A stretch of 64,000 bases of DNA from Bacteroidales bacterium (lineage in GTDB: Bacteria; Bacteroidota; Bacteroidia; Bacteroidales; Bacteroidaceae). The stretch lies in NCBI GenBank assembly GCA_015060905.1, contig SUXQ01000004.1, positions 1 through 64,000 on the forward strand, given 5' to 3'. The notes under the pieces are model-generated. The model saw nothing but the letters and a program-made list of their open reading frames with translations, had not been told where the DNA came from and searched no databases. Positions 4,690-21,984 of the stretch are shown here, in pieces. Position 1 is the first letter of the stretch, and each line of letters opens with the position of its first letter. The translations under genes and the position numbers were made by a program.

Positions 4690-5457
4690 ATGAAAAAGTA
4701 TTTGGTCGATTTGACGGTAAAATGTGTGCAGCAGGTTAATGCCACATGTGTACTGTTGGTTATGACTGACGACAAGCCTCTTCCCCCTTGCAAGCCCGGC
4801 CAGTTTGCCGAATTGCGTATCGATGATACTCAGGGGATTATACTTAGAAGGCCTATTTCTATCCATTATCTGGATGTGGAGAAGAATGAGATTGGTTTTC
4901 TTGTTCAGGTTGTTGGGGAAGGTACTAAATGGCTTGCTTCCGTTGAGCCGGGGGATAAGGTTAATACTCTTTTCCCTCTTGGTAACTGTTTCGGCATTGA
5001 TGGTGATAAAAGTAAAAAGTTGCTCCTTGTGGGCGGTGGCGTAGGCTGTGCTCCTCTCTATTATTTGGGGGCGGAACTGAAAAAGGCCGGCTATGATTTT
5101 ACTTTCCTAATAGGTGCCCGTAAGAAAGAGGATTTGTACAGACGCGATGAATTTGAGGCTTTTGGGCGTGTGGAATATACTACCGAGGATGCTTCGCTTG
5201 GCGAGAAGGGGTTTGTGACGAATCACTCTGTTCTGAATGAGAAATTTGATAAGATTTATACGTGTGGTCCTAAGCCTATGATGATGGCTGTTGCCGCTTA
5301 TGCTAAGCAAAATAATATCGCGTGCGAGGTTTCGCTTGAGAATAAGATGGCGTGTGGTCTTGGTGCTTGTCTCTGCTGTGTGGAAGATACAAAGGAGGGG
5401 CATCGCTGTGTTTGTACTGATGGTCCTGTATTTTCAATTGATGAATTAAAATGGTAA
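4690..5457 (+). CDS. pyrK: Dihydroorotate dehydrogenase B electron-transfer subunit
   Basis: FAD/[2Fe-2S] subunit that passes electrons from dihydroorotate oxidation to NAD+ in pyrimidine synthesis. The protein is 255 residues, the usual size. An RRPIS FAD-binding motif lies at residues 53-57 and a GGGVGCAP nucleotide-binding loop at 115-122. Near the C-terminus CGLGACLCC and a further Cys in HRCVC supply the [2Fe-2S] ligands. The frame is open for 16 residues upstream; the ATG at 4690 starts at the usual [10 protein letters not shown]. The stop overlaps the pyrD start by 7 bases, so the two subunits are translationally coupled. Confidence 0.95.
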
Positions 5458-6362
5458 AGACTGATGTTAAAATAGGTGGATTGCACCTTAAAAATCCGGT
5501 AATGACCGCTTCGGGAACTTTTGGTTACGGCCTTGAGTTTGCCGATTTTGTGGATCTTGAGAAATTAGGCGGTTTTGTTGTTAAAGGTACTACTTTGAAG
5601 GCGAGAGAGGGTAATCCCTATCCGCGCAGTGCCGAGACGCCTATGGGTATGCTCAACGCTGTGGGATTGCAGAATAAGGGTGTCGATTATTTTGCCGAGC
5701 ATATTTACCCCGAACTTAAGGACTTGAATACTAATGTTATTGTTAATGTTTCGGGTGCTTGTATCGAAGATTATGTTGCTACGGCCGAAAAAGTGGCTGC
5801 TCTGGATGGTATTCCCGGTATTGAGCTGAATATTTCTTGTCCCAATGTGAAACAGGGAGGAATGGCTTTTGGTGTTCAGGCGGCGTCGGCTGCCGAGGTT
5901 GTGTCGGCTGTGCGCAAGGTGTATCCTAAGACTCTGATTGTTAAGCTCTCGCCGAATGTTACTGATATAACAGAGATTGCGCGTGCCGTTGAGGGTGCGG
6001 GTGCCGATAGTGTTTCGCTTATAAATACGCTGTTGGGCATGGCTATCGACTCGGAGAAGCGTCGTCCTATTCTTTCTACTGTTACAGGTGGTATGAGCGG
6101 CCCTGCTGTTAAGCCTATTGCTTTGCGCATGGTGTGGCAGGTTGCTAATGCTGTGAAGATTCCTGTTGTGGGTATGGGTGGTATTACCAATGGTAGGGAT
6201 GCTGTGGAATTCTTGCTTGCCGGAGCGTCGGCCATAGAGGTTGGTACTGCTAATTTTATGAATCCTGCTGTAACGGGTGAAATTGTGGACTATATTGAGG
6301 ATTATTTAGTGCGTCACAATTTCTCTTCTGTTGATGAAATTATAGGCGGTTTACAGTTGTAA
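5451..6362 (+). CDS. pyrD: Dihydroorotate dehydrogenase, class 1B catalytic subunit
   Basis: FMN subunit of dihydroorotate dehydrogenase, converting dihydroorotate to orotate. Class 1B is shown by its length (303 residues), by the catalytic Cys130 in [13 protein letters not shown], and by pyrK directly upstream and overlapping. Other family motifs are [11 protein letters not shown] near the N-terminus, the NTLLGMAID phosphate region and the GMGGI barrel motif. It works as an NAD-linked heterotetramer with PyrK in the cytosol. A strong hairpin terminator follows. Confidence 0.96.
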
Positions 6363-7270: not shown

Positions 7271-8084
7271 ATTATTTTGTGTTGTTTTTCTGCTTTATTA
7301 TGCAAATGTAGAATTTTATTTTATTCTTCACAAATTTGTAACTCCTTTTAGTCTCTTTTCTATTTTCTGCGAGAATCGAATATTTGGATTCTTTTCGTGT
7401 GATTGATGGGAATTTTTAATTCTCGCAGAATTTCTCCTTATTATATATACGCCGAATTTCCTTGCGGCTTGAATAAATGTAAAGAAATATTACTTTTATA
7501 ATAATACCTATTATTGCTCATACTGTTGAGTGTAGCCAAAAATGTCTAAAGAGGGGCGGCGTAATTTTTGCGAAAAAATAGAATTTTTTGTGAGAATTGC
7601 AGGTGAGTGTGGTTCTATAATGTAGAAGTTGCATACTCGTTGTTAAAATGTAAATTTCACATTTTCTATATTTTGTGTTAATTCTGCAGCCTTAACTTGT
7701 AGAATCGTTGCTATCTTCGCGTTTGAAATAACGTGCATTGTAAAAAATTACTTGCTTTAACAAACGCTTTTTTGTACCATCGCAGCAATTCCGCGCATTG
7801 TGGATGCGGGAAGGACATATTTTAAGAGCGTTTGAAATTATCTTTGTTCAGAAAATCGCCAATTTAATGAACAACTCAAAGATAATGAGCAAGGCGCTCA
7901 CGTCAGTGTTATATATATGCCCGGTAGGGTGTACTATATATACATTTGGCGTGGGTTATTGTTTGTTACTTGATGATGGGCAGTCCAGAGCCTCAATGTT
8001 GTAATTAACAATAGTTCTCACGCCCTGTTTCTTTATTATCGCACTCATCGGGGAATTGTGAGGGCAAAGAAAAAAGTTTTTTTT
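7271..8084. other. Long non-coding leader region before the BspA-like gene
   Basis: About 810 bases without a convincing gene. TATCTTCG at 7712-7719 is a possible -7 box with no well-spaced -33 box. The part nearest the gene has paired segments: a perfect 10-bp inverted repeat (7837-7846 with 7877-7886) and an interrupted stem of 6 plus 7 bp (7948-7963 with 8007-8024). This suggests a structured 5' untranslated region of about 350 bases. A decayed match to 7815-7846 lies before the broken paralogue at about 12935-12970. Confidence 0.4.
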
Positions 8085-8732
8085 ATGCTAAAATTTTACT
8101 TTAAAAAGATGCTGATGGCAGTGGTTGCGCTGCTGTGCAGCTTAACTGTGAGTGCCCACGACTTTGAGGTGGACGGAATTTATTATAATTTAGCCTCGGT
8201 GTCGGATTTAGTTGTACAGGTTGCTTTTGAAGGAGAAAAGTATAATACGTCCAATGAATACTCGGGTAGTGTTGTAATTCCTGAAACAGTTGCATACAAT
8301 GGAAATAGTTACAGCGTTATAGGCATACATCGTGAAGCGTTTTCAGGTTGCAGCGGCCTTACAAGCATCTACGTATTAAATGAAACTCCGATTAGTGTTA
8401 AATCCGATATTCTTGGAAATTACGATACTACTTTATATGTTCCGCAAGGGGAACTCGAAGTTTATAAAGCTGCCGAGGGTTGGGGATATTTTGCAAATAT
8501 CGTAGAATTTGACCCGACAGGCATTGAGGATGTAACGGAGGATGCTCCTGCGTTTAAGGTTACAGCCGGCGGTATTCAAATGACTGCTGCCGAGGGTAAG
8601 GCTGTTGCTGTTTATTCTGCCGGCGGTGCGCTTGTGGAAAAAATTGCTGTTTATGAGGGCGAGGAAATTGCGCTCGACAAGGGTGTTTATATTATCCGCG
8701 TGGGCGAGAAGGCTGTGAAAGTGAAATTGTAA
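8085..8732 (+). CDS. BspA-like leucine-rich-repeat surface protein
   Basis: Exported protein of 215 residues. A signal peptide (MLKFYFKKMLMAVVALLCSL, cleavage near SAH) is followed by a BspA/LRR_5-type unit with GIHREAFSGCSGLTSIYV and the strand TTLYVPQGELEVYKAAEGW. The C-terminal 70 residues form a beta-rich domain ending GVYIIRVGEKAVKVKL, which resembles sorting domains of secreted Bacteroidetes proteins. A GTG at 8058 would add nine charged residues before the signal peptide, so the ATG at 8085 is chosen. BspA proteins are adhesins in related species; the role here is inferred. Two fragments of a close paralogue flank the island at 13.0 and 21.6 kb. Confidence 0.75.
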   Translation: MLKFYFKKMLMAVVALLCSLTVSAHDFEVDGIYYNLASVSDLVVQVAFEGEKYNTSNEYSGSVVIPETVAYNGNSYSVIGIHREAFSGCSGLTSIYVLNETPISVKSDILGNYDTTLYVPQGELEVYKAAEGWGYFANIVEFDPTGIEDVTEDAPAFKVTAGGIQMTAAEGKAVAVYSAGGALVEKIAVYEGEEIALDKGVYIIRVGEKAVKVKL

Positions 8733-8800: not shown

Positions 8801-9988
8801 CTAATAGGAAACATTTTCGGATATTCCCGTCAGGGTAGCAATGGCAATTCCATAATTAGTTATCGGCACATTCTGCGCTTTTGCCTGACGGATACGGGTA
8901 AGCACGTGGCGACGAGTGAACATACATGCGCCACAGTGTATTATAAGATTATAAGGCGTAAGGTCGTCGGGAAAATCGTTGCCCGAAACAATATCAATAT
9001 TTATATTTTCGCCTAATTTGTTACGTAACAGTCGGGGGAGTTTCACACGTCCAATATCTTCATTTTGCGGAATGTGACTGCACGCCTCGGCTATGAGTAT
9101 GCGGCCGTCGGTAGGCATATTTTGCAGAATTTTTGCGCCGTTGCGGAAGGTGTCAATGTCGCCTTTGTGACGAGCCATAAGTATGGAAAAGGATGTCAGG
9201 CGGCTCTCTTTGGGTGCGAGTTTCGCAACCTGCGGAAATATTTGTGAGTCGGTGATTATAAGCGAGGGGGCACACTTAAGGCTGCCGAGCATTTGCGGAA
9301 GTTCTTCGAGGGCGCAACAGAGAGCAAGGCAATGTTTGTCGAGCAGGTTGCGCAGCGTCTGAACTTGTGGTTGTATCAGGCGTCCTTGCGGGGCCTGGGC
9401 ATCTTGCGGCATTACAAGCACCACTGTGTCGCCGCTTTTTACAAGGGTGTGGGTAATGTCGCTGATATTGTCGCCTGTGACGTAAATTTCGGCCATGCGG
9501 GCGAGCAGTTTCTCTTTTCCCTCGCCTGTCTTTGAGGATACAGGAAGGATTTTGGCGTCTAATAGTTGTTCCCACGCATCTTTTAAGGCGAGATTTTCGG
9601 GAGTGTCACTTTTTGCGAGCAGGGGAATTACGGGAATATTGAGCGATGAGAAAAGTTTCATCCACTCTTTCTCGAAGGTCGCATCTTTTGGCGAGCCGTC
9701 GAGCAGCAGTAGAGCGAGGTCTATACGCGCAGCCGATTGACGGGTGCGCTCGACACGCTTTTCTCCAAGCTCGCCGCAGTCGTCGTACCCGGCAGTGTCG
9801 GCAATCACCGCCGCGCCTACCCCCGGAAGTTCTATATTTTTCCACACTGTGTCGGTGGTTGTTCCTGCAACGTCCGAGACGATGGAGGTCTCTTGCCCTG
9901 TTATTAGATTTATCAACGAGGATTTTCCGGCGTTGCGTCGGCCGAAGATGCCTATGTGGTAACGGTTGGAGCGTGCTGTCTGGTTCAT
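8801..9988 (-). CDS. hydF: [FeFe]-hydrogenase maturation GTPase HydF
   Basis: Scaffold protein on which the 2Fe subcluster of the H-cluster is assembled before transfer to HydA. The protein is 395 residues, the usual length. The N-terminal G domain has Walker A GRRNAGKSS at 16-24, the G2-like AGTTTD and G3 DTAG. The C-terminal part carries the [4Fe-4S] ligand region IHCGACMFTRRHV, with ligands His and Cys, and the motif TNYGIAIA. It is the last gene of hydE-hydG-hydF and is separated from hydG by a repeat element, which may insulate it or carry its own promoter. Confidence 0.96.
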   Translation of the reverse strand: MNQTARSNRYHIGIFGRRNAGKSSLINLITGQETSIVSDVAGTTTDTVWKNIELPGVGAAVIADTAGYDDCGELGEKRVERTRQSAARIDLALLLLDGSPKDATFEKEWMKLFSSLNIPVIPLLAKSDTPENLALKDAWEQLLDAKILPVSSKTGEGKEKLLARMAEIYVTGDNISDITHTLVKSGDTVVLVMPQDAQAPQGRLIQPQVQTLRNLLDKHCLALCCALEELPQMLGSLKCAPSLIITDSQIFPQVAKLAPKESRLTSFSILMARHKGDIDTFRNGAKILQNMPTDGRILIAEACSHIPQNEDIGRVKLPRLLRNKLGENINIDIVSGNDFPDDLTPYNLIIHCGACMFTRRHVLTRIRQAKAQNVPITNYGIAIATLTGISENVSY

Positions 9989-10003
9989 TGTTCCTGTTTT
10001 TCT

Positions 10004-10197
10004 AAGAAGCTGTTTTAAATTTCTTTCTAAAAAGTATATTACATTACTCGCAAGTTATGCTTGCTTTTTTATGCTCTTTTTTGCCTGTTTTTCCCTTTTT
10101 CGCAGTTACATAGCCCGCTATGCGCCTTTAAAAAATGAAAAAACATTCTAAAAAAGACCTATAAAAATTTCAAGGACATAAATTTAAACAACTTCTA
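10004..10197. repeat. MITE-like inverted-repeat element, copy 1
   Basis: About 194 bases between hydG and hydF, matching copies at 53958-54151 and 58500-58694 (which lie in the opposite orientation). The ends are inverted repeats built on AGAAGCTGTTTAAATTT; the centre contains a CATAGC/GCTATG mini-hairpin and A- or T-rich tracts. Both ends begin with TA, consistent with a TA target duplication. The last three bases on the hydG side (10195-10197) are the hydG stop codon TAG. No transposase is encoded; short frames inside are not conserved genes. Confidence 0.85.
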
Positions 10198-11613
10198 AAA
10201 TCTGAAGTCGCGTTCGCCTTGTTCTATTGCGTCAAGGTATTTTGCAGCCGTTGCGCGTGCCTTTTCGTTGGGAATGTCGGCGAGCAGGCGTTTAATCATT
10301 GCTTCGGCCTTTTCGCGGGTCGCGGGCGAGGCGTAGTCTTTTATATACTCTTTAAGGGTAAGTAATGCGTTTGGCAGACAGCAGTTGGCTATCTGTCCGT
10401 TCTTCAGCAGTGTCATGAAACGGTCGCCGGTGCGACCCTCGCGGTAGCAGGCTGTACAGAAGCTGGGAATGTGGTCAAGGTCGAGCAGCCAGCCTACAAT
10501 TTCGTCGAGCGTGCGACGGTCGGAGAGGTCGAACTGTGCAGAATTTTCCTCTTCGCTCTCTTCGGTGACGTAACCGCCGACGCTGGTGCGCGAGCCTCCG
10601 CTTATCTGTGAAATTCCAAGCTCGAGGACTTTTTCGCGGCTCGTGGCACTCTCGCGGGTGGAGATTATCATGCCTGTGTAGGGGACTGCTATTCTTATTA
10701 TTGCCACTATGCGGTAGAAAATTTCATCGGGGACGCAGTTTTTAAAGTCGGCAGTGTCAATGTCATCGGCCATGCACAGACGGGGCACGCTTATTGTGTG
10801 AGGGCCGACGCCGTAGGTTGCTTCAAGATGCTCGGCGTGCATCAACAGGCCTATAAAGTCGTAACGATAGGTCTCGAGGCCGAAAAGCACTCCTATGCCA
10901 ACATCGTCGATGCCTCCTTGCATGGCGCGGTCCATTGCCTCTGTGTGGTAGGCGTAGTCTTTTTTGGGGCCGGTGGGGTGCAGTGCCTCGTAATTGGTCT
11001 TGTTATATGTCTCTTGAAAGAGTATATATGTGCCGATGCCTGCGTCTCGCAGTTTGCGGTAATTTTCGACGGTGGTTGCCGCAATGTTCACATTCACGCG
11101 ACGGATGGCCCCATTCTTGTGCTTGATGCTGTAAATGGTCTTTATACTCTCGAGAATATACTCTATGGGGTTGTGCAGCGGATGTTCACCCGCTTCGAGT
11201 GCCAGACGTTTGTGTCCCATATTTTGCAGAGCAATAACCTCGTCGCGTATCTCCTCCTGCGTAAGTTTTTTGCGACGAATATTTTTATTCTTGGCATGGT
11301 AAGGACAATATACGCAGCCGTTTACACAGTAGTTCGATAGATATAGTGGGGCAAACATCACTATGCGGTTGCCGTAGAAACGTTTTTTTATTTCGCGGGC
11401 AAGATTGTACATTTCCTCGACAAGGTCGGGCTGGTCGCACTCGAGAAGAAGGGCTGCCTCGCGGTGGGAAATTCCCTTACAGTCGCGTGCTTTTTCTATT
11501 ATTGCCTTTATAAGCTCGCGATTGTTGCGATTCTCGTGAGCATACTGCATTGTGTCGCGAATCTCGCTGTCGCAGATGAACTCTTCGGCTTTTGTGGATT
11601 TTGCGTTATACAT
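10195..11613 (-). CDS. hydG: [FeFe]-hydrogenase maturase HydG (radical SAM tyrosine lyase)
   Basis: Radical-SAM enzyme that cleaves tyrosine to make the CO and CN ligands of the H-cluster. The protein is 472 residues from MYNAKSTK. The radical-SAM cluster motif CX3CX2C is Cys96, Cys100 and Cys103 in NYCVNGCVYC. The C-terminal auxiliary cluster motif CX2CX22C begins at FCTACYREG, as required for HydG. The ATG at 11613 lies 4 bases after the hydE stop; a longer start at 11643 would overlap hydE. The protein ends GERDFRF, then a TAG formed by the end of the neighbouring repeat element. Confidence 0.96.
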   Translation of the reverse strand: MYNAKSTKAEEFICDSEIRDTMQYAHENRNNRELIKAIIEKARDCKGISHREAALLLECDQPDLVEEMYNLAREIKKRFYGNRIVMFAPLYLSNYCVNGCVYCPYHAKNKNIRRKKLTQEEIRDEVIALQNMGHKRLALEAGEHPLHNPIEYILESIKTIYSIKHKNGAIRRVNVNIAATTVENYRKLRDAGIGTYILFQETYNKTNYEALHPTGPKKDYAYHTEAMDRAMQGGIDDVGIGVLFGLETYRYDFIGLLMHAEHLEATYGVGPHTISVPRLCMADDIDTADFKNCVPDEIFYRIVAIIRIAVPYTGMIISTRESATSREKVLELGISQISGGSRTSVGGYVTEESEEENSAQFDLSDRRTLDEIVGWLLDLDHIPSFCTACYREGRTGDRFMTLLKNGQIANCCLPNALLTLKEYIKDYASPATREKAEAMIKRLLADIPNEKARATAAKYLDAIEQGERDFRF

Positions 11614-11617
11614 AATT

Positions 11618-12670
11618 CTATATTTTGTAGTCGCCACGAGCATAATTAATATGGTAGCCTATGGCGTTTAGTTCTTTTTCGAGTTTTTCTATATCTTCGG
11701 CCGACTCGCTGCCGCCGGTCGCCTTATTGTCGTATATTGAGTATTTGCTGCGCACACTGCGGGGCGAAAGATTGGGCATTATCACATTTGCTCCGGCGAG
11801 GATAGCGCGTTTGCGTCCCTCGGGGTGCAAGGTTGCAAGGGCAGTCGTTGCCGGGATTAGTGTCGAGGGGAAACGCAGACGCAGTAGTGAAATGAGCAAA
11901 AGGGTAGTGTCGATGCTGCCGGCAGGCTCGCCTGCAAAAGGTGTTCCGGCGGCTGGGATAAACGGCCCGATGCCTATCATTTCCGGTTGCAGCTCTTCGA
12001 GGAATTGCAGGTCGTCTATCAGATGCTCGGTTGTCTGTCCCGGCGAACCTATCATCATGCCCGAGCCCGTCTGAAAGCCTGCCCGTTTGAGGGCTGAAAG
12101 GCACTCGCGACGGTTGCTTGCGCTCATCGTCCGGGGGTGCAGAAGAGAATAATGTTCGTCGTTGCGCGTCTCGTGACGCAAAAGGTATCTGTCGGCCCCT
12201 GCCTTGCGAAAAGCATGGTAGGCTTCTTCGCCGCGCTCGCCCACCGACAGGGTTATTGCCTTCTCGGGGTGTGCGGCGCGAATGGCGCGAACAACGTCTG
12301 TCAGCCACTCGTCATTTTGCACAGCATCCTCACCACCTTGTAGCACAAAGGTGTTAAAGCCGAGACGCGAGCCTTGTTCGCAACATTCGAGAATATCCTC
12401 TTTCGTCAGGCGGTAGCGTTGCGCCAACGCGTTGCCGGCACGCAGCCCGCAATAATAGCAGTTGTTGCGACAGTAGGAACTTATTTCTATAAGCCCGCGA
12501 ATGTATACGCCCCTGCCGAACTTTTCCTCGGCAACAGAGGCAGCCATAGAACGAAGAGCCTCTTTCTCGTTGGCAGTGAGGGCAGTGAGTAGTGCGTACC
12601 ACTCTTCGCGACGAATAGCCTTTCCGTCGTAAAGCTTTTTTATCAATTCCCTATTATCGCGCAATTTCAT
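11618..12670 (-). CDS. hydE: [FeFe]-hydrogenase maturase HydE (radical SAM)
   Basis: Radical-SAM enzyme acting with HydG and HydF to build the 2Fe subcluster, thought to act on the HydG product on the way to the dithiomethylamine bridge. The protein is 350 residues, the usual length. The CX3CX2C motif is Cys67, Cys71 and Cys74 in SSYCRNNCYYCGLR. The family pieces ETRNDEHYSLLHP and GSGMMIGSPGQT are present. It is the first gene of hydE-hydG-hydF. The hydrogenase itself lies 11 kb away at 23.7 kb, on the other side of the insertion. Confidence 0.95.
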   Translation of the reverse strand: MKLRDNRELIKKLYDGKAIRREEWYALLTALTANEKEALRSMAASVAEEKFGRGVYIRGLIEISSYCRNNCYYCGLRAGNALAQRYRLTKEDILECCEQGSRLGFNTFVLQGGEDAVQNDEWLTDVVRAIRAAHPEKAITLSVGERGEEAYHAFRKAGADRYLLRHETRNDEHYSLLHPRTMSASNRRECLSALKRAGFQTGSGMMIGSPGQTTEHLIDDLQFLEELQPEMIGIGPFIPAAGTPFAGEPAGSIDTTLLLISLLRLRFPSTLIPATTALATLHPEGRKRAILAGANVIMPNLSPRSVRSKYSIYDNKATGGSESAEDIEKLEKELNAIGYHINYARGDYKI

Positions 12671-12865
12671 TTTTTCACTGCATTTATATACAAATATGTT
12701 GCAAATTTTTTAACGTAAACCCACTTGCAGTTATTCAACTAGTGTAGCCTATGTTCGCAACGCAATTGCAAAATTACAAAAATTTCATTTATCGACCATT
12801 ATGCGGCGAGATTTTCGAATGTAAGAAAGTAATCAATGAAAAAACGCCCGATAATATATCACCCA

Positions 12866-12897
12866 TTTGCTTAGTTATAAGCTTTTAACTACTTTTG
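12866..12897 (+). promoter_or_regulatory. Promoter left in front of the broken BspA-like gene
   Basis: TTTG (12866-12869) and TACTTTTG (12890-12897) are 20 bases apart, matching the Bacteroidetes consensus. It points into the left gene fragment, and through it toward the Abi RNA and gene. Confidence 0.65.
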
Positions 12898-12993
12898 CAT
12901 AGTTCTTAGGGCGAATAGTCCTTTGAGCAGACATACTTTAAGGTGTTATTGAAATTATCTTCTTAGATTAAACTTCGCACATTTAATTTTAGC

Positions 12994-13190
12994 ATGAAGA
13001 TGTCACAAGCATAGAATTCGGTGCGTTCGAGGGTTGTATCAACCTTACAAGTATCTATTTATTAAATAAGGCCCCGCTAAGTTTAAGATATCCTTTTAGT
13101 AATTATGACGCCACTTTATACGTACCTCAAGGGTCACTCGAAGCCTACAAGAAATCAGTTGCACAGCAGATGGAAGTTAGCATCCCGTAG
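12994..13190 (+). pseudogene. Left fragment of a disrupted BspA-like gene
   Basis: Remnant of a paralogue of the BspA-like gene at 8.1 kb. A start-like ATGAAGATG at 12994 is followed by a TAG after six codons. A second frame then gives IEFGAFEGCINLTSIYLL and continues through TLYVPQGSLEAYKK, collinear with the intact protein's repeat unit, and ends at a TAG (13188-13190). The signal peptide and N-terminal domain are missing. From 13026 to 13138 it is 98% identical to the right fragment at 21595-21707, and homology fades at about 13153. The remainder overlaps the Abi-associated RNA. Confidence 0.75.
13026..13138 (+). repeat. 113-bp direct repeat, left copy
   Basis: Identical to 21595-21707 except for two bases, in the same orientation. 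Both copies encode the same BspA-like segment and they bracket the 8.46-kb insertion. The intact gene at 8.1 kb is far less similar here, so the two copies are each other's closest relatives. Confidence 0.9.
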
Positions 13191-13214
13191 AACTGCTGGC
13201 GGGTCGCTTTTTTT
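13160..13214 (+). ncRNA. Abi-associated structured RNA with terminator-like T-run
   Basis: A short structured sequence ends in seven Ts (13208-13214), only 6 bases before the Abi start codon. CAGCAG (13164-13169) pairs with CTGCTG (13193-13198), enclosing a possible GATG/CATC helix (13169-13172 with 13181-13184). CCCG (13184-13187) can pair with CGGG (13200-13203), which lies outside the first stem, giving a pseudoknot. Abi_2 (AbiF-type) genes are known to have conserved structured RNAs upstream (the abiF RNA motif), proposed to act as RNA antitoxins for the HEPN RNase. Assignment to that class is inference from position, size, pseudoknot potential and T-run. The 5' end is uncertain. Confidence 0.5.
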
Positions 13215-13220
13215 ATAACT

Positions 13221-14144
13221 ATGAACCTGCGCCCACGCACAATAGAAGAACAGGTCTTATTGCTCAGAGCAAAAGGGATGGAATTTGAAGATTTAGGTGA
13301 AGCAAAAGCTTTGCTTGCTCGAATCAGTTATTTCCGGTTGAAGTATTTTTGGACAGACCTGATTGATGACTCTACAGATGGTGATTTCTTGCCTGATACA
13401 TCTTTTGATATGGTCATGAAACGCTATAATTTCGACCATAACCTACGATTGGTGTTGTTTGATGCAATAGAAATGATCGAAGTAGCTTTTCGTGCTAAAA
13501 TCATCAATCATATGTCAAAAGCAGCAGGCAATGGACTTTGGTATCTTGATGCATCATTGTTTGAAGATGCCGACAGACATCAAGAGTTTGTGCTTAACTT
13601 GAAATATGAGTTTGAAAGAAGTACTGAACCGTTTGCTAAGAAGTACATTGAGAACCATCCCAATTGGCAAGGGGATAGTTTTGAGGGTGATAACCCTGAT
13701 GCTTGGATGATAATTGAGGTGGCTACTTTCGGCACACTGTCGAAGATGTATAAGAACTTGAAGAATCAATTGCCTCAAAAGTCAGCCATTGCAAATGATT
13801 TTGGACTTTACTCATCGAGAGAGTTTTCCAACTGGATAGAGATAATCTCGTTAATGCGAAATATCATAGCACACCATTCTCGTCTATGGAACAGAGCACT
13901 CAGCAAGAAAATATCAAACATCAAAGGATATAAGCATCCTTGGCTGAATAACAATTTCTCAGAAATGCAGAAGAAAAAGCCTTATGCAGTGGCTTGTGCC
14001 TTGGTTTATCTTTGCAAAACAGTTAGCGGTAGCAACTCTATTCGAGATAAGGTAAAAGCCTTGTTTGACTTCTGCTCATCCTCTATACCTATATATAAAA
14101 TTGGTATTCCTACCAATTGGAAGAATGAGCCACTTTGGAGGTAA
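13221..14144 (+). CDS. Abi_2 (AbiF/AbiD-like) HEPN RNase
   Basis: Abortive-infection family protein of 307 residues. The opening LRPRTIEEQVLLLRAKGM and ARISYFRLKYFW match the Abi_2 N-terminus. The HEPN catalytic motif is LMRNIIAHHSRLWNR, with Arg213 and His218 in Rx4H spacing; RAKIINH (Arg91 to His97) is a second R-x-H pair in the early conserved block. Abi_2 proteins are thought to cut RNA and stop growth of phage-infected cells, and some are held in check by a small RNA. The structured RNA just upstream fits this. No phage or replication genes surround it. Confidence 0.88.
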   Translation: MNLRPRTIEEQVLLLRAKGMEFEDLGEAKALLARISYFRLKYFWTDLIDDSTDGDFLPDTSFDMVMKRYNFDHNLRLVLFDAIEMIEVAFRAKIINHMSKAAGNGLWYLDASLFEDADRHQEFVLNLKYEFERSTEPFAKKYIENHPNWQGDSFEGDNPDAWMIIEVATFGTLSKMYKNLKNQLPQKSAIANDFGLYSSREFSNWIEIISLMRNIIAHHSRLWNRALSKKISNIKGYKHPWLNNNFSEMQKKKPYAVACALVYLCKTVSGSNSIRDKVKALFDFCSSSIPIYKIGIPTNWKNEPLWR

Positions 14145-14405
14145 GCAGCGAGTTGATTAAGAAGGCTCTGCTAATAGACATTGTAAATGGTCGTATAAAT
14201 GACGTCCTTGAAATTATTAAGAATAGTCCGAAAATATAAATACAGCCATATGAATTCATATAGGGAAAAGCTATACTACTATATTTTCTGTTAGGTCGCA
14301 AATTACAGCCTAAGATATAAGATGAGTTAGTGGGGTACACTGAATATGCCGTGGGGAGAGAAGAATAAAGGACGGCTGTGTTAAGTGGTGAAATATATTT
14401 TTGTG
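14145..14405. other. Gap after Abi with a 34-codon orphan frame
   Basis: A frame from a TTG at 14135, overlapping the Abi stop, to a TAA at 14237-14239 encodes 34 residues with a helical, protein-like stretch (ELIKKALLIDIVNGRIND then VLEIIKNSPKI). It could be a small coupled gene or the tail of a lost gene. A 14-bp perfect palindrome lies at 14248-14261. Nothing else is recognised before the tRNA-like sequence. Confidence 0.3.
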
Positions 14406-14489
14406 TGCCGATGGCAGGATTCAAACCTGCATCTCCCATACTCGTTCACGTGTATGAAGTATGGTTGTTCTATATTGAACTACATCGGC
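14406..14489 (-). tRNA. tRNA-like sequence with abnormal anticodon arm
   Basis: An 84-base sequence that folds partly like a tRNA on the minus strand. The acceptor stem is 7 perfect pairs (GCCGATG with CATCGGC) followed by a discriminator A; the D-stem is GTTC/GAAC; the T-arm is GCAGG/CCTGC with loop TTTGAAT. Departures are clear: the D-loop lacks GG, the T-loop lacks the canonical C, and the anticodon region is a long hairpin (CCATAC/GTATGG plus TTCA/TGAA) with no standard 7-base loop, so no anticodon can be assigned. It may be a degenerate tRNA, an atypical element-borne tRNA or another tRNA mimic. It lies 19 bases after tolC on the same strand. Confidence 0.45.
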
Positions 14490-21594: not shown

Positions 21595-21707
21595 TTCGAG
21601 GGTTGTATCAACCTTACAAGTATCTATTTATTAAATAAGGCCCCGCTAAGTTTAAGATATCCTTTTAATAATTATGACGCCACTTTATACATACCTCAAG
21701 GGTCACT
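21595..21707 (+). repeat. 113-bp direct repeat, right copy
   Basis: Partner of 13026-13138 with two mismatches, same orientation. The boundary on the left is sharp: similarity begins exactly at TTCGAG in both copies. Confidence 0.9.
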
Positions 21708-21984
21708 AGAAGCAAATAAGAATGCCAACATTTGGAAAGAGTTTAATAATATCGTTGAATTTGACCCAACAAGCATTGAGGATGTAACAGAGGATGTTCC
21801 CACCTTTGAAGTAACTGCCGGTGGCATTCTGTTTACCGGTGCCGAGGGCAAGGTGGTTGCTGTTTACACTACCAGCGGTGCGCTTGTTGAAAAGATTAAC
21901 GCATACGCAGGCGAGGAGATTACGCTCGACAAGGGTGTTTATATTATCCGCGTGGGTAACAAGGCTGTGAAAATAAAACTATAA
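21595..21984 (+). pseudogene. Right fragment of the disrupted BspA-like gene
   Basis: An open frame of 129 codons without a start codon at the fragment boundary. It encodes FEGCINLTSIYLL through TLYIPQGSLEANKNANIW, then EFDPTSIEDVTEDVP and the sorting-domain-like end GVYIIRVGNKAVKIKL. This is collinear with residues from about 85 to the end of the intact BspA-like protein at 8.1 kb. Signal peptide and N-terminal domain are absent. The coding frame is undamaged, so the break is recent or still under selection. Confidence 0.8.

Follow-up and report, generated by a model that had tools for sequence, protein, structure and literature searches.

Does the abi gene in this stretch of DNA, together with the sequence immediately before its start codon, constitute an RNA-based toxin–antitoxin unit? 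Such a unit had been proposed from the letters of the window (the whole 64,000-nucleotide stretch analysed). Relatives do carry a conserved, covarying RNA upstream of abi, but it is one hairpin, and in the window it is truncated and promoterless. We conclude that the window probably holds (probability about 0.76) a decapitated AbiF-like, type III-like toxin–antitoxin unit, a remnant from a mobilisable element.

The abi gene and its product

The gene and its catalytic motif are as follows.
13221..14144, + strand: abi gene, predicted HEPN ribonuclease of the Abi_2/AbiD-F family (307 aa, intact ORF)
13857..13874, + strand: HEPN motif R213-N-I-I-A-H218, aligned with R210/H215 of PbAbiF

The abi product matched PF07751 with an E-value of 1.2e-52 and 179.4 bits against a curated cut-off of 25.6, which places it in Abi_2, and it matched the PADLOC AbiD model with an E-value of 3.5e-64. 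It contains the R-polar-x3-H pattern of HEPN ribonucleases, and R213 and H218 were invariant in 15 of 15 aligned Abi proteins. Hence the sequence-only reading was right to describe an Abi_2 protein with an intact HEPN motif (Arg213, His218). In a PDB sequence search, the sole significant relative of the window Abi was 8VZ6 (E 1.8e-40). By homology to this dimeric structure, the one basis for the prediction, the window Abi may be an RNase and a homodimer. Its own genome (31 contigs, 87.5% complete) contained a single match of this protein, the window Abi itself.

The dN/dS of the window abi against L001 was 0.147. In codons 1–236, where the window differs from L001 by three amino acids and from G277 by two, there were six synonymous and no non-synonymous changes unique to the window; codons 237–307 had 11 synonymous and 13 non-synonymous ones, and residues 237–292 hold 13 amino-acid changes of the window branch. 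Over the whole branch, non-synonymous to synonymous changes were 15.5:20.5 for the window, 3:10 for L001, and 12:44 for L003; the non-synonymous share is higher on the window branch than on the other two because of the second block (codons 237–307). Since L044 and L055 share the C-terminal variant (compared by eye), this block looks like an exchanged allele, and its changes could also reflect damage to the window Abi protein. Overall, abi appears to be under constraint, with no clear sign of decay.

A conserved hairpin precedes abi in intact relatives

One scan of genome contigs yielded 58 abi loci, and the gene start could be placed in 46 of them. A conserved hairpin followed by a T-run was located directly upstream of abi in 40 of the 46 loci. 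The six exceptions were L002 and L005, in which the sequence was replaced, L032 at a contig edge, and L049, L051, and L052, which encode more distant proteins. The consensus of the upstream RNA was AACAGWACYCGYYNGCAUMCCRUARGAWCUGCNGGCGRGUCAY-U(n).

Stem statistics were obtained from 28 copies chosen for diversity, 22 of which precede an ORF of 298–309 aa. In the 11-pair stem, 98.7% of the cells were paired and 28 cells were compensatory, and neither value was reached in any of 500 shuffles; when the stem was slid by 1–3 columns, 22–46% were paired. RNAalifold, unaided, returned the identical 11 pairs, and three pairs changed on both sides. Four covarying pairs were counted, a number reached by 70 of 500 shuffles; six of the eleven stem pairs never vary and are therefore uninformative on covariation. 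Covariation among homologues, which the sequence-only reading had named as a check on its RNA, is present in this stem by its 28 compensatory cells. Stem, loop, and T-run before an Abi_2 gene, which together define the RNA that we designate R1, all occur in the relatives.

Six loci were tested for a promoter before the RNA. TTTG-N20-TACCTTTG was found in L001, L003, and L004, a looser form in L007 and L038, and none in L044. A tree built from 48 selected proteins placed the 21 linked to R1 on one side of a branch with support 100/99 and the RF03085-linked proteins outside it. Among 47 viral-contig loci, R1 preceded abi in three (L176–L178, E<1e-10), and the other 44 gave weak matches or none. 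The upstream structure of the relatives is one conserved hairpin, linked to Abi_2 and not caught by the Rfam abiF model where tried.

Differently truncated versions of the R1–abi unit occur in L002, L006, L044, L045, L055, L057, L141, and L143, all in draft assemblies. The rearrangements in L002, L044, L141, and L143 break abi near codons 8–12, as if the RNA and the first codons formed a module.

The window copy is truncated and has lost its promoter

Three features precede abi in the window.
13176..13207, + strand: truncated R1-type hairpin (inner 5′ arm GUUAGCA, loop UCCCGUAGAAC, complete 3′ arm UGCUGGCGGGU)
13208..13214, + strand: T-run of the former intrinsic terminator
12866..12897, + strand: candidate promoter-like match, Bacteroides-type TTTG-N20-TAnnTTTG, ~280 nt upstream of the half hairpin

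The T-run consists of seven Ts six bases ahead of the ATG, just as the sequence-only reading had placed it. Similarity to the intact RNA starts at 13176. Seven of the eleven pairs of the stem are kept in the window copy, together with the complete loop and the T-run; the outer 5′ arm (ACCC) is absent, three outer C-G pairs are gone, and the leader and promoter of the intact relatives are missing. The R1 covariance model scored 42.7 bits for the window and 79.0 bits for the intact G030 copy, a loss of 36 bits. The intact hairpin folds at −16.9 kcal/mol (z −3.1), whereas the equivalent window stretch (13165–13207) folds at −10.0 (z +0.14). Folding of 13150–13220 was shuffle-like (z −0.18), and a terminator scan over 12700–13260 found none; the compact structured sequence described from the letters was not confirmed. 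Measured by the 11-pair stem, conserved loop, and T-run before an Abi_2 gene, the window copy is not an R1-type RNA, and the window has no antitoxin RNA with its own promoter, which marks an AbiF-like type III toxin–antitoxin system. The RNA being truncated and the promoter gone, the window therefore holds a broken unit. When the own genome was scanned with the R1 covariance model (150 of 988 first-look candidates scored), no second match below E 0.1 was obtained, the next having an E-value of 0.25.

The Bacteroides-type promoter pattern matched six times in the window on both strands, against a shuffle mean of 2.0, and at least six matches occurred in 2 of 100 shuffles. The site at 12866–12897 could drive a long leader into abi. 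A sigma-70 consensus scan gave three matches against 1.8 expected, with a consensus that is not informative for this phylum.

Could the unit still work, the shortened hairpin being transcribed from 12866 or another site and binding and restraining Abi? The retained pairs, loop, and T-run, the promoter-like match, and the intact and constrained abi ORF are consistent with this, as is the interval 13173–13215, whose fold, with the T-run included, is slightly better than that of its shuffled versions in general (z −1.42), 20 of 200 doing as well. However, the stretch equivalent to the intact hairpin has lost its folding and the copy 36 bits, and stem-destabilising changes abolish antitoxin function in RCd22, where, according to PMC12373285, removal of one stem pair per motif abolished neutralisation and pair-keeping changes did not. 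As one pair per motif is enough for RCd22 to lose neutralisation, the window hairpin should not protect, and we consider a working unit quite unlikely.

The proposed pseudoknot

The sequence-only reading had interlocked CAGCAG with CTGCTG and CCCG with CGGG as a pseudoknot. These stretches are present (CAGCAG 13164–13169, CTGCTG 13193–13198, CCCG 13184–13187, CGGG 13200–13203), and their letters are complementary. However, when the 44 nt upstream were dinucleotide-shuffled, 22.5% of the shuffles, like 27.7% of 44-nt windows from the donor gene, also matched the 3′ part over at least 6 nt; the pseudoknot thus stands at chance level. The CAGCAG arm derives from a mobilisation gene, and CAGCAG was absent upstream in seven of seven homologues checked. 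Across 23 homologues, 87.0% of the cells of the CCCG/CGGG helix were paired, above the slid controls (4–65%) owing to the conservation of each stretch. Of the four pairs of this helix, however, three are disrupted in some homologues (2, 5, and 5 sequences, respectively), and changes on both sides occurred at one pair only (2 cells). The pseudoknot was rejected on an outer helix that is at chance level and unconserved and an inner helix that breaks in up to 5 of 23 sequences. That it is a true, newly formed antitoxin structure is barely credible.

In ToxIN and other type III systems, an RNA antitoxin precedes an RNase toxin, and the antitoxin RNA of ToxIN-like systems is tandem-repeated and pseudoknotted. 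The abi unit shares the order of RNA antitoxin before RNase toxin; unlike those systems it has neither tandem repeats nor a conserved pseudoknot and lies outside their definition. To our knowledge, the ToxIN toxin family is unrelated to Abi_2.

Relics at the junction and in the flanks

The hairpin and abi are bordered by the following sequences.
13026..13153, + strand: BspA-like gene fragment (named by eye), 128 nt, 95% copy of window 21595–21722
13137..13174, + strand: relic of a mobilisation-gene interior, 38 nt, 97% to L001 4365–4402
14182..14282, + strand: relic of the 3′ part of an SLFN_AlbA_2 gene, 78% to L166 2804–2905
14406..14489, − strand: tRNA-like element (Rfam RF00005, 48.6 bits) at the island edge, inside the flank shared with L168

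The label BspA-like refers to the look of the translation, and Pfam gave no match on 13026–13153. The stretch 13136–13175 resembles the mobilisation-gene interior in six related elements, and in L001 its source lies ~530 nt upstream of the intact RNA. The mobilisation gene took its name from annotated plasmid genes, which align with half of it at ~79% identity; it had no match in Pfam, NCBIfam, or the PDB sequences. Phage records gave no match at the DNA level. The RNA had been thought to overlap the tail of a broken BspA-like gene; the overlapping sequence is the mobilisation-gene relic, and the BspA-like copy ends at 13153.

The junction was seen in one assembly, and none of the 43 other genus genomes contains it in full. 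This absence, the division of the genome into 31 contigs at 87.5% completeness, and the repetition of the BspA-like piece within the same contig would suit an assembly chimera, in which the contig was misjoined and the real genome has an intact promoter and hairpin. On the other hand, adjoining alignments share 17 nt (with mismatches) where the BspA-like and mobilisation pieces meet and 0–1 nt at the other join, which would be shorter than usual assembler words; the two BspA-like repeat copies differ by 5%; and the R1–abi unit is truncated in the eight further loci named above, which are draft assemblies too. We regard a misjoined contig as very unlikely and a broken unit as the better reading of the junction.

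From 14368 on, the chromosomal flank is 95% identical to that of G020 (L168), the site of another hairpin-bearing island. As G020 shares this flank and has its own island there, the locus looks like a shared insertion spot. ARAGORN called no tRNA at 14406–14489; by appearance, this sequence on the − strand has a very long anticodon loop. Genes for the [FeFe]-hydrogenase maturases HydF, HydG, and HydE lie directly left of the island (window 8801–12670, − strand).

R1 compared with Rfam abiF and characterised systems

The Rfam abiF model (RF03085), a search proposed along with the original claim, found nothing in the window at gathering or at E≤10, and a relaxed E-value gave only a chance miRNA match. 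It had no match in the own genome (87.5% complete) or, at E≤10, on the intact members L038 and L043. Over 14 homologous loci it matched only L051 (distant, Polaribacter), and over 20 viral-contig relatives it matched L183. Among 251 family genomes, RF03085 was found in 87 and R1 in 24, under different E limits. Among canonical RF03085 RNAs of the family (RF03085 loci include L110, L111, and L112), 11 of 30 examined lacked an ORF of at least 200 aa with its start no more than 400 nt away; some of these lie where a contig stops, and others may be orphan antitoxins.

The layout of RF03085 is CCCGCC-A-AGC-loop(11)-GCU-CAAAUC-GGCGGG, and that of R1 in the window's group is CCCGUC-AGC-loop(13–14)-GCU-GGCGGG. 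Both have an outer stem CCCGYC/GGCGGG, an inner AGC/GCU (in the window's own group), and a U-rich tail, whereas R1 is without the 6-nt bulge on the 3′ side and its loop measures 13–14 instead of 11 nt. R1 can be read as a sister variant of the AbiF–RNA pair, and R1 and abiF RNAs likely share descent.

8VZ6 is the PbAbiF–ncRNA complex (PMC12737573; also described in PMC12373285). PbAbiF, with its AbiFr ncRNA (Zilberzwige-Tal et al.), is a homologous HEPN toxin with matching catalytic R and H, numbered R210/H215 in PMC12373285, and the relatives of the window Abi likewise have a cis ncRNA upstream. PbAbiF scored 322 bits with L117, the one RF03085-linked protein tried, and 142 bits with the window Abi; therefore, it probably belongs to the Rfam-abiF side. 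Two bulge nucleotides, C32 and U38, are reported to inhibit the RNase of PbAbiF (PMC12737573), and the R1 hairpin lacks a 3′ bulge of this kind. AbiFCd/RCd22 of C. difficile (PMC12373285) resembles the R1 type in having an RNA upstream of abi, a shared promoter, read-through, and a stem on which function depends. In RCd22 the abiF motif occurs twice and the terminator stands apart, whereas R1 is one hairpin with the T-run directly after it; the window R1 copy is broken.

The upstream hairpin of the relatives might be a terminator or attenuator only, never binding Abi. It is indeed a hairpin with a T-run, and R1 copies are also located 3′ of other genes. Against this, the loop UMCCRUARGAWC would be conserved past terminator needs, the RNA type follows one Abi protein clade, and R1 stems match abiF RNAs, whose relatives bind their toxins according to PMC12373285 and PMC12737573. 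A terminator-only role is unlikely, and we retain the antitoxin reading below.

Hairpins beside other cargo in mobilisable elements

At E≤1e-4, R1 gave 38 distinct matches. The genus sample contributed 15, spread over 12 of its 44 genomes, and the family sample another 23 from 18 additional genomes. All were classified by hand, with gene names in relatives based on sequence. Fourteen, the window included, precede an abi start (L141 and L143 retain ~12 codons of abi, and L155 a short ORF), and eight follow abi, the tail of abi, or the spacer 3′ to it. Six follow SLFN_AlbA_2 genes (five of six tested by Pfam), two follow AbiEii (both Pfam-tested), three copies, of leader type or mid-element, have no abi, and five fall in none of these classes.

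R1 stood shortly after the cargo stop codon in L165–L169 (SLFN_AlbA_2), L170 and L171 (AbiEi–AbiEii), and L164 (DUF3307), and the order in L161, L164, L165, L166, L171, and L173 was mobilisation gene, cargo, hairpin. Among the eight hairpins after other cargo, pairwise identity averaged 0.90 within the hairpin and 0.43 and 0.26 in the flanking sequence. The hairpin value is high partly by construction, the hairpin having been the means of finding these loci; the dissimilar flanks are the informative part of this comparison. Terminator duty, recombination, recent spread, or a selected antitoxin function could each account for hairpin retention on cargo.

In some loci, abi lies between two hairpin copies ~1.06 kb apart: in L173 (G030; 4939–4979 and 5998–6038), in L161 (G277; 8332–8372 and 7274–7314), and also in a genome from another genus that is a single 5.6-Mb contig. 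A downstream hairpin copy is likewise present in L002. The downstream hairpin was tried as the exact end of the mobile element and does not always serve as one, for in L161/L159 and L055 the same sequence continues beyond it.

A broader idea, which is unlikely, is that the AbiF-type hairpin forms the 3′ end of a family of mobilisable elements and is kept after unrelated defence cargo without a full abi, where it would either confer a portable immunity to AbiF toxins resident in the host or mark a shared boundary for cargo swapping; the window would then be one product of such swapping.

Proposed origin of the window unit and its meaning

In intact relatives, a Bacteroides-type promoter would be followed by a short RNA, ~50–90 nt if its start lies just after the promoter, ending in the hairpin and U-run just before abi. 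As in characterised AbiF systems, the hairpin would bind the HEPN dimer and block its RNase; because the same hairpin would also terminate transcription, most transcripts would be antitoxin and few would read through into toxin mRNA. In the window genome, a rearrangement would have swapped the promoter, leader, and outer 5′ arm for the mobilisation-gene relic and the BspA-like fragment. No cognate antitoxin and weak or no termination are predicted, the intact toxin ORF being either silent through loss of its promoter or read at a low level from the promoter-like site at 12866. Either the loss of promoter and antitoxin was recent, or abi is expressed from elsewhere, or its toxicity is low; the undamaged ORF fits an active gene as well as a recent decapitation.

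The intact relatives define an abi-linked RNA that the Rfam abiF model missed where tried and that lacks the bulge by which PbAbiF is reportedly inhibited. Since R1 has no inhibitory bulge, the question is by what means AbiF-like toxins, which have been proposed as ancestors of Cas13, are silenced in its absence. The stem-breaking mutation made in RCd22 has a natural counterpart in the window, and hairpins that remain beside other defence cargo suggest a testable idea, that antitoxin RNAs may travel without their toxin.
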